From positions 1 to 64,000 of the forward strand of contig NZ_JACSRD010000210.1 of the NCBI RefSeq assembly GCF_014879935.1: a DNA stretch of 64,000 bases, given 5' to 3'. This document shows positions 19,721 through 22,287 of this stretch, in pieces. Every line of letters starts with the position of its first letter. Position 1 is the first letter of the stretch. The stretch comes from Prosthecobacter sp. GTDB taxonomy: Bacteria; Verrucomicrobiota; Verrucomicrobiia; Verrucomicrobiales; Verrucomicrobiaceae. A model generated the notes under the pieces. That model did no database searches. It saw only the letters and a list, made by a program, of their open reading frames with translations, and was not told where the DNA came from. Both the position numbers and the translations under genes were made by a program.

Positions 19721-20005
19721 TTAAGACTTCGATTCTGCCGTCCATATCCGCCACACCGGAATCAGTCCGCTTTGCACGACCTCCGTGGCGGGTGAGGCGC
19801 GTTCCTGGATCGCCACATAATCCATCCGGGGGATGCTTTTACGTACCAGATCCTCCCCACGCTCAAACAGCTTTTGATAGGCTTCCTTGGCGATTTGCGC
19901 TTCCGACTTGAGTCGCTCGTGCTCGGCCAGTTTGCTTCCCTGCCTGAGAGCTTCTTTTTCAATCTCGGCACATTGTTCATCCAAGGCGGCGATCAGACGT
20001 GGCAC
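19721..20005 (-). pseudogene. Frameshifted C-terminal tail of the M56/Wzz-like protein
   Basis: This frame continues the coiled coil of the gene upstream. Its open reading begins before its first Met with DITKELQQRYEGVPR, then LIAALDEQCAEIEKEAL and ERLKSEAQIAKEAYQKLFERG, ending in WRIWTAESKS. The previous frame reads out near 19993 in an unlikely SRRSCNSDMKACHV tail. A -1 shift near 20036-20040 joins the two. I see no classic slippery heptamer there, so a lost base or a sequence error is more likely than programmed frameshifting. Confidence 0.72.
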
Positions 20006-21843
20006 GCCTTCATATCGCTGTTGCAGCTCCTTCGTGATGTCTCGGCCAAAGCTTGCAGCAAGAACTTTGCCTTGGCGATCTTCTCATCCAGCGCCAGCAC
20101 CTCCACATGATCAGGCTTGCGGGTTTGCAGCAGGAACTTTCGATCATTGTCGAAAACAAACAGCTCGTTCTTGGTTTTGAGGTAGCTGGCCTCGGCGTCC
20201 GTTGGGATAAAATCGCTTCCGGGACGCGATTCCCGCTTCCTCGCTGCCAAGGCGGCAGAAATGTCATCCAACGCCAGCTTCATCCCCGCTGCCTCTGTGC
20301 GCTGCTCGTCTCGCTGCTTCCTCAATGCGTAAAGCCGTGTGGCGGTCTCATTGTTGGCATTCGCAAGCATCACGACATTGTTCTCTTTCTGGAAGGCTGC
20401 GAGCGCCGCGGTCTTTTCGTCCATGACCTTCTGCTTTTTCACTATCTCTTGAAGAAAGGTGTTCAGAACTTTGCCGCCTGCTTGTTCGCGGATCGACTGC
20501 CGGAAGGCAATGAACTCATCCAGCAGCGCGTCCAGAAACACCCTCGCATATTTGCCGTCCTCGCAGCGTGCCTGGATGCTGAAAATGGCTGAAGCCTTGT
20601 GCTGCGAGGCCATGATTTCCACATCATGGTTGTTCAGATTCGGATTCAATGCCTTCACGCGCTCCAGCGCCCGGCGTTTCATCTCGGCTGATTCGATGGT
20701 CTCGATGATTGTGCCGTAGAAGTCCTGGTTCTGCTCCCTCCAACTGGCGGCTGCCGTTGTGTTGAGTCCGCCCGCCACCAGCTTCGCCACGCTTTGATAT
20801 ATCGGCTTTTTCTGGGTGAACTCCATCTTCGTCGTCGCCAGCACGCTCAGAATCACCGCCAGGATCGCGATCAGGCTCAACGCGCCGACACCGACCCGCC
20901 CGCGCCAGCGGTTGTGTTTCATCAGTTCGCGCACACGCTGCCGCACCGGCTCCCCTCCGAACATCGCCAGGCCTGCCACGTTTTGAAGACGCGTTGGCAG
21001 ACCGGCGGCGATCTCCACCAGCATGCGCGCATAGTCGTGTGCGTCTCCGCCCGCCAGCACGGCGGCATCATCGGCCGCATGCTCGGTCTCGGTGCGCAGC
21101 CTCCGCCAGGCATGCCACGCCAGCGGCTGCCACCACCAAAGGCACACGGTGATCTGCGCCAGCCAGTGCCAGGGGACGTCCGCGCGACGCCAATGAGCCA
21201 CTTCATGCCGCAGCACCGCATTCAGCCGCTTCTCATCCCAGGCCAGTGCTTCCAGTGGCAGCCAGATCACCGGCTTGAGCCAGGCCGTGAGCATCGGTGA
21301 ATGCAAACGCTCCGCCACACGGCTGGAAAGGCGACAGGGCCCGTTCATTTCGTTCAGCAGGCGCTTCACGGACTCCGGCGATGGCTTGCTGTGTTTTCCA
21401 AGCCAGATCAAGCCCGCGTATGCTGAGACCACACGCCAGAACAGCAGCACGACCGCAACGCCGAGCCACACTTTGGCTCCGGTGTCCTCCACAAGCGCCA
21501 GGCCTTGCTGCCACCACGTTTCCTCCGCCAGGATCATGGCCGGCATCTTCGACATGGCGGGAATCACCTCGACAGGAGCGGCCGGGAGCGTCACGCGCCA
21601 CTCGACGACGGCCACAGGCGGCGTGCTTTTCGGCATCAGGCGCCACGCCGCCACTGCGAGCAGCAGCACCATGGTGATCCGCCACACCAGGCTGCGGGCG
21701 TGCGCAGAGTGTCGCTGCAAAGGCAAAGCGATCACCCATGCGACGCACACCACCGCCGTGCTCGTGAGAAAAGCGGTCAGCAGCAGCGCCAGATTCGGAT
21801 TGAGTGTCAGAATCCGCAGAAAGCTTTCCACAAGATCATTCAT
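19993..21843 (-). CDS. M56 (BlaR1-like) membrane metalloprotease fused to a Wzz-like coiled-coil region
   Basis: A protein of about 616 residues in its current frame. Residues 1-330 carry several membrane helices and the zinc site HEVAH (His213, Glu214, His217) in RLNAVLRHEVAHWRR, as in BlaR1/MecR1. Instead of a penicillin-binding sensor domain, residues about 340-600 resemble the periplasmic polysaccharide-chain-length (Wzz/GumC) domain: YQSVAKLVAGGL, GTIIETIESAEMKRRAL and long coiled coils. The ATG at 21843 overlaps the stop of the BlaI-type gene, so the two form a coupled sensor-repressor pair. The C-terminus is displaced by a frameshift. Confidence 0.85.
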   Translation of the reverse strand: MNDLVESFLRILTLNPNLALLLTAFLTSTAVVCVAWVIALPLQRHSAHARSLVWRITMVLLLAVAAWRLMPKSTPPVAVVEWRVTLPAAPVEVIPAMSKMPAMILAEETWWQQGLALVEDTGAKVWLGVAVVLLFWRVVSAYAGLIWLGKHSKPSPESVKRLLNEMNGPCRLSSRVAERLHSPMLTAWLKPVIWLPLEALAWDEKRLNAVLRHEVAHWRRADVPWHWLAQITVCLWWWQPLAWHAWRRLRTETEHAADDAAVLAGGDAHDYARMLVEIAAGLPTRLQNVAGLAMFGGEPVRQRVRELMKHNRWRGRVGVGALSLIAILAVILSVLATTKMEFTQKKPIYQSVAKLVAGGLNTTAAASWREQNQDFYGTIIETIESAEMKRRALERVKALNPNLNNHDVEIMASQHKASAIFSIQARCEDGKYARVFLDALLDEFIAFRQSIREQAGGKVLNTFLQEIVKKQKVMDEKTAALAAFQKENNVVMLANANNETATRLYALRKQRDEQRTEAAGMKLALDDISAALAARKRESRPGSDFIPTDAEASYLKTKNELFVFDNDRKFLLQTRKPDHVEVLALDEKIAKAKFLLQALAETSRRSCNSDMKACHV

Positions 21844-22225
21844 GGGCGCGTGCCTCCTCAATGAGTTGAATCAGTTTGTCCGCTTCGTCTTTGGACAGCT
21901 TCACGTTTTTCTGTCCCAGCAGCGCAAGCGCGGCTTCTCCGGCGGAATTCTCGAAAAACCGCCCCACAAAGCTCTGCAAGGCGCTCACGCGTGCCTTCTT
22001 CGGCGAGACTGGCAGTGAGAACCAGTCGCGCCCGTTCTCCTGCACTTTGTTCAACAGCCCGCGCTCCACCAGCAGCCGCAGGATGGACCGCACGGCCGAG
22101 TAAGTCGGCGCGTCCGGCAGTTCCTCCTCGATCTCACGCGCGGAGACCCGCCCGTGCTTCATCACGATCTCGATCACCTGCCGCTCTCGCCGGCTGAACT
22201 CATTGGAATGCTTGTCGTCCCACAT
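21836..22225 (-). CDS. BlaI/MecI/CopY family transcriptional repressor
   Basis: A 129-residue winged-helix regulator: FSRRERQVIEIVMKHGRVSAREI and the recognition part YSAVRSILRLLVERGLL, followed by a dimerisation region (KLSKDEADKLIQLIEEA). Family members repress their own operon until an M56 protease partner triggers their cleavage. The partner gene overlaps it by 8 bases downstream. Two perfect dyads immediately upstream of its ATG are probable binding sites, so autoregulation is expected. The inducing signal is unknown, and a beta-lactam role is not implied because no beta-lactamase lies nearby. Confidence 0.9.
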   Translation of the reverse strand: MWDDKHSNEFSRRERQVIEIVMKHGRVSAREIEEELPDAPTYSAVRSILRLLVERGLLNKVQENGRDWFSLPVSPKKARVSALQSFVGRFFENSAGEAALALLGQKNVKLSKDEADKLIQLIEEARAHE

Positions 22226-22226
22226 G

Positions 22227-22246
22227 GGTGTTGATTTTTCAACACC
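22227..22246. promoter_or_regulatory. Operator-like dyad 1 for the BlaI-type repressor
   Basis: Perfect 8-bp arms GGTGTTGA and TCAACACC flank TTTT. The site lies one base upstream of the repressor's ATG. It shares the core TGTTGA-N4-TCAACA with a second dyad 41 bases away centre to centre, about four helical turns. Confidence 0.72.
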
Positions 22247-22267
22247 AAGGGACAGTCGTCAAGTCCG

Positions 22268-22287
22268 CATGTTGAATTTTCAACATG
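22268..22287. promoter_or_regulatory. Operator-like dyad 2 for the BlaI-type repressor
   Basis: Perfect 8-bp arms CATGTTGA and TCAACATG flank ATTT. The spacing and core match dyad 1, so a pair of repressor dimers could bind the same DNA face. Confidence 0.72.

Follow-up and report, generated by a model that had tools for sequence, protein, structure and literature searches.

We describe an operon that pairs a gene for a BlaI/MecI-type repressor with a gene for an M56 protease whose sensor is, on the evidence of sequence comparison and modelled fold, a homologue of the periplasmic region of the resident Wzc-type tyrosine autokinase. Our main reading, to which we give a probability of about 0.5, is that of a two-gene self-regulated BlaI-M56 switch in which the sensor would be a captured periplasmic copy of the host's own autokinase: its base would join or dock on the Wzc ring, and the state of the ring would be converted into cleavage of BlaI and derepression. 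The operon lies in a window of 64,000 nucleotides (the whole stretch of DNA that was analysed), where the protease gene is broken by a one-base frameshift. The part worth following is the sensor base, which in several lineages is matched to the autokinase of the same genome, and it is better followed in relatives with intact copies than in the broken window copy.

The protease, its sensor and the frame break

The protease gene of the window has the following parts.

19993..21843, minus strand: first frame of the M56 protease with its Wzz/Wzc-like sensor, 616 aa from ATG, cut short by the frameshift
20929..21783, minus strand: Peptidase_M56 domain (Pfam, aa 21-305, E=1.9e-25)
21193..21207, minus strand: HEVAH (HEXXH) zinc motif, aa 213-217, conserved in alignment A1
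21070..21084, minus strand: EHAAD (EXXXD) gluzincin motif, aa 254-258, conserved in alignment A1
20824..20892, minus strand: hydrophobic helix ahead of the sensor, equivalent of BlaR1 TM4 (from sequence; helix 4-20 in the sensor model)
20041..20799, minus strand: Wzz/Wzc-like periplasmic sensor, first-frame part with base and coiled coil (from homology and fold)
20040..20041, minus strand: position of the one-base frameshift (the only gap when aligned as DNA to L065)
19721..20040, minus strand: -1 frame part of the sensor, with returning helix, closing strand (DYVAIQERA) and tail (SGLIPVWRIW)

The protein is a member of Peptidase M56 (BlaR1 family), with 90.1 bits for Peptidase_M56 against the Pfam cut-off of 31, and the HEXXH and EXXXD motifs are those described for BlaR1 (PMC9834060). 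It stays far below the cut-off of NF000326, the whole-protein equivalog of the BlaR1 beta-lactam sensor/transducer (51.5 bits against 400), and that match is restricted to the protease part. A model of the full-length protein had low confidence and is too uncertain for judging the joint between protease and sensor. The earlier note on this DNA had proposed a fusion of an M56 protease to a Wzz-like domain, unlike the penicillin-sensing BlaR1, and Pfam, the homology to the autokinase and the fold search bear this out. Its implication that M56 sensors other than penicillin-binding ones are rare does not hold, as other M56 proteins in these genomes have CarboxypepD_reg or secretin/SLBB domains. 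M56 proteins with secretin and SLBB-like domains are encoded in the window's genome as well (L133:724-2754 and L134:618-3494), so M56 proteins may have borrowed sensors from export machines more widely.

The nature of the sensor became clear through the autokinase. A single-sequence search with the window protein gave no Pfam match to the Wzz family, TIGR03007 matched one sensor homologue only, and weakly (0.0035), and a sequence search of the PDB with the sensor profile returned mostly unrelated coiled coils, with Wzc only at E 2.4; matches to curated profiles are clear only via the autokinase. The closest relatives of the sensor are open frames of ~740 aa, one of them in the window's genome, where sensor and autokinase are 47% identical over 286 aa; in relatives the values are 45-57% over aa 339-551. 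This resident ~740-aa protein is a BY-kinase (AAA_31; TIGR01007 3e-39; TIGR03007 1.7e-17), and its gene forms one operon with an adjoining Wza-type Poly_export gene and a barrel gene. The fold was assessed on the intact homologue L010, whose sensor was modelled with AlphaFold2 (389 aa, pLDDT 78). The model consists, in order, of a TM helix, a strand, two helices, two strands, a long helical hairpin and a closing strand, and in a Foldseek search of the PDB the best nine chains were Wzc, followed by KpsE and WzzB. Comparison with Wzc 7nhr by VIA gave Z 13.4 (residues 18-436); because unrelated coiled coils get Z ~12, we put weight on the ranking of families and on the base, not on Z alone. The assignment as Wzz-like is thus confirmed both by homology to the autokinase (TIGR03007/TIGR01007) and by the modelled fold of L010, which is that of a Wzz/Wzc co-polymerase; the first frame of the window copy is without the closing strand. 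The second TM and the BY-kinase that mark a class 2a co-polymerase (Wzc) are absent, the sensor ending before TM2 and having no kinase domain. Separately, we observed proteins of ~340 aa, often in tandem, with a Wzc-like domain, two TM helices and no kinase (L057:4849-6981, L058:5225-8521, L059, L061 and L062), one group of which sits near the autokinases in the tree of the base (76/75).

The frame break that the earlier note had seen near 20038 is real. DNA alignment to L065, the nearest relative (69% aa), places it at 20040/20041, with 20038 within the uncertainty: over 677 bp the two are 79% identical, and the alignment has a single gap, where the window lacks a base. The first frame terminates in SRRSCNSDMKACHV and a stop, and the -1 frame carries DITKELQQRYEGVPR and continues to a stop at 19721; the shift is -1, and there is no slippery heptamer. 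The longest homopolymer in 20020-20060 is 3, which leaves no easy excuse for a sequencing slip. We compared 16 M56-sensor genes, the window's being one, and 14 of the 15 other homologues have one open frame across the break point to the end of the sensor, which counters the possibility, raised earlier, that all homologues stop at the first frame. Two of these 14 are incomplete at the start, at a contig end (G045, and G195, whose start is on another contig); the open frames of the rest of the 14 span 709 to 823 aa, some pre-start codons counted in. The fifteenth, the G109/Prosthecobacter homologue (L012:3893-5602 / L047:8223-9932), has the whole coiled coil deleted and keeps the base and the closing strand at the end of the domain.

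Past the break, the window protein and L065 share 74% of their residues, compared with 77% in the coil upstream of it, and identity to the outgroup G045 in this downstream part is 50% for the window and 51% for L065. The downstream sequence is still about as conserved as that of L065, and therefore the lesion should be recent, or else an assembly error. Such conservation is also what programmed -1 frameshifting, yielding a short and a long form, would have in its favour; however, the homologues pass the break point in one frame with no shift needed, L065 differs from the window there by a single base, and neither a slippery site nor a shifted frame conserved in homologues was found, so that we give this explanation almost no credence. 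As judged from these alignments, the frameshift reflects damage to this copy, or else faulty assembly, and not programmed recoding. With the final part of its sensor gone, and with it the base-closing strand, the window copy is probably not a working sensor.

Sensor and autokinase compared across lineages

Sensor and autokinase of the same genome were compared in 16 genomes from six lineages: A, the window's, with 6 genomes; B, with G191, G195, G072 and G103; C, with G129 and G193; D, with G106; E, with G157 and G085; and F, with G171. In lineages B-E, identity over the sensor's first 140 aa is 78-86% to the autokinase of the own lineage and at most 73% to the autokinase or sensor of any other, a contrast that is large but not blind, as the lineages and the cut between base and coil were chosen after seeing the data and genomes within a lineage are non-independent. 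The last 45 aa behave in the same way (68-87% to the own autokinase, at most 61% to others), whereas the coil between them is 26-40% identical to the own autokinase and has little or no preference for it except in E (40 vs 27). When identity is followed along the sensor of G193 in 25-aa steps, the profile is U-shaped: 96, 100, 96, 92, 100 and 76, then ~10-35, then 80 and 100. In the fold these two matched ends come together to form the membrane-proximal base. Motif 1 of Wzc makes the periplasmic ring contact, and the base does so in both Wzc and Wzz (PMC8285477). The window's own lineage gives little support, its values of 58/36/51% (N part of the base, coil and last 45 aa) being near baseline, and appears to show the matching only weakly; lineage F, at 39% on the base, has no match.

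Four-fold sites between a sensor and its own autokinase are at background level even where amino acid identity reaches 93-97%. This argues that selection, not fresh copying, keeps the two matched, and it means that collapsed assembly repeats cannot explain the match. Recent gene conversion by DNA tract was rejected on the same grounds, long shared tracts being absent as well.

In the tree of the base, a single clade of all sensors is rejected (AU p 1e-60), and with it a single origin followed by plain descent for the base, though the protease halves of the genus, together with G171, form one clade (96/94); the starred branches force at least five changes. A single clade of all sensors is also rejected in the tree of the coil (p 1.6e-4), which was built without G109, whose coil is deleted, and G171, which has a very long branch. 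When the constraint is limited to the sensors of the genus, it is rejected on the base (p 2.9e-4) and not on the coil (p 0.11). The protease halves of D and E fall in the CarboxypepD_reg group, where the fork is unresolved. From these trees, D and E probably gained or exchanged their sensors independently, whereas the base of the genus's sensors has been re-matched, by old conversion or by replacement. The distribution of the gene is patchy, with 12 of the 48 genomes of the genus having it. Beyond the family no M56-Wzz protein was found at E 1e-70 in 337 genomes of the phylum, which is weak evidence of absence given that few family members were drawn and at most three candidates per genome were scored; a plasmid collection yielded a weak M56 match only.

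Repressor and operator

Upstream of the protease gene lie the repressor and two dyads.

21836..22225, minus strand: BlaI/MecI-type repressor, overlapping the start of the M56 gene (Penicillinase_R 3.1e-18)
22229..22244, no strand: operator dyad 1, TGTTGATTTTTCAACA
22270..22285, no strand: operator dyad 2, TGTTGAATTTTCAACA, 41 bp from dyad 1
22257..22262, minus strand: TTGACG, a -35-like box between the operators (from sequence)

With 66.6 bits for Penicillinase_R against a cut-off of 22.6 and an M56 gene adjacent, the first of these is a repressor of the BlaI/MecI type. BlaI was found beside the M56 gene in most neighbourhoods, the exceptions being L050 (G129), where the gene caller missed it, and G045, where it is on another contig end. 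In G193 (L138:2971-3195) BlaI appears frame-broken next to an intact M56-sensor gene.

Dyads of the form TGYTGAWWWWTCARCA occur in 12 upstream regions, mostly in pairs spaced by ~41 bp; at some loci one member of the pair is not exactly symmetric, and G157 and G085 have a third. The exact consensus is found at 2 sites in the 7.7 Mb of the window's genome, both before this operon, and at none in the reversed control of that genome; with 0 mismatches, neither the autokinase nor any other gene of this genome lies under it. Allowing one mismatch adds an in-gene site and a single site before a small secreted protein, numbers that are near chance. The latter site (G000:C238:52251-52266, L127) lies just before the gene and may be due to chance. 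Across 47 genomes of the genus, each operator pair belongs either to this operon or to a sister BlaI-M56 CarboxypepD_reg operon (five places), and two single sites stand elsewhere. Since operator pairs lie at BlaI-M56 operons, the switch seems to control itself. No polysaccharide gene or clear second target was found downstream of the operator, nor were polysaccharide genes recognised adjoining the operon. Sister operons with CarboxypepD_reg repeats were seen at L119, L120, L121, L122 and L135, and the doubled operator is common to both types, which makes cross-talk possible in G190 and G097, where both are present.

Proposed mechanism, alternatives and known systems

Under the main reading, the base of the sensor would allow the M56 protein to enter the host's Wzc ring or to dock on it. 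A change in the state of the ring would then move the last helix and free the cytoplasmic zinc site to cut BlaI, the signal being relayed, as in BlaR1 (PMC9834060), by the helix that precedes the sensor, and cleavage of BlaI would derepress the operon. Assembly and disassembly of the ring are controlled by phosphorylation of Wzc (PMC8285477). The sequence pattern suggests that the partner is the Wzc autokinase itself rather than polysaccharide. We hold more tentatively the broader idea that BlaI-M56 proteases repeatedly took up, or kept re-matching, the ring-forming base of the host Wzc, which would place the protease in or on the ring and link its assembly state to repressor cleavage.

Other explanations make different use of the same observations. 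Wzc and Wzz act in the polymerisation and export of polysaccharide, and a sensor with the Wzc fold might sense polysaccharide, as the earlier note proposed, by binding it or a lipid-linked precursor directly, the domain having been captured for that binding. We consider this unlikely: the matching is strongest not in the distal helices but in the base near the membrane, which in Wzc forms the ring (PMC8285477), and the surroundings of the operon held no recognisable polysaccharide genes. It is also conceivable that the matching has nothing to do with partnership, as the pattern could arise, with no physical partner involved, from old gene conversion followed by general constraint. Occasional conversion between homologous stretches, added to constraint on the base, would make the match a by-product, and this would fit a genus in which the protease halves are one clade and the base is not. 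Yet the background level of four-fold sites excludes recent exchange, separate tracts would be needed for both ends of the domain to match and the middle not, and the match follows the structural base; we regard the by-product as a little more doubtful than direct binding. Less probable still is that the sensor serves as a decoy for a toxin, phage or antibiotic targeting Wzc, much as beta-lactams hit both the BlaR1 sensor and penicillin-binding proteins. A decoy would have a formal parallel in BlaR1 (PMC9834060), would account for the lasting match of the copy to the local Wzc, and would agree with presence in only a quarter of the genomes of the genus, but no resistance or defence gene was found under the operator and no agent of such a kind is known.

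If docking on the Wzc ring is true, a BlaR1-type transducer would sense by means of a maintained copy of an endogenous machine, not of a drug-binding enzyme. It would provide a direct proteolytic read-out of the state of the Wzc ring, and how cells sense their own capsule or exopolysaccharide export would become a testable question. A general clue would follow, namely that the partner of a sensor can be read from the paralogue in its genome to which it stays matched. In the open-access literature, covered by a search that was not a full one, we found no earlier description of an M56-Wzc sensor.

The operon resembles BlaR1/MecR1-BlaI/MecI in having BlaI and M56 genes side by side, HEXXH and EXXXD motifs, operator dyads ahead of the repressor, and a protease whose C-terminal domain lies outside, beyond the last helix. 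Unlike in BlaR1/MecR1, a Wzc periplasmic domain replaces the penicillin-binding sensor, and no resistance gene was found under the operator. With the Wzc/Etk/GumC autokinases (class 2a co-polymerases) the sensor shares the order of TM, base, helical hairpin and closing strand, and its base is about half identical or more to the resident autokinase of this type; in contrast to them, it lacks the second TM and the kinase domain and sits behind an M56 protease. A further parallel is offered by the BlaI-M56 CarboxypepD_reg proteins of the genus, which have the same repressor subfamily, the doubled operator and a related protease half, but carry a string of CarboxypepD_reg repeats where the proteins described here have a Wzc-like sensor.
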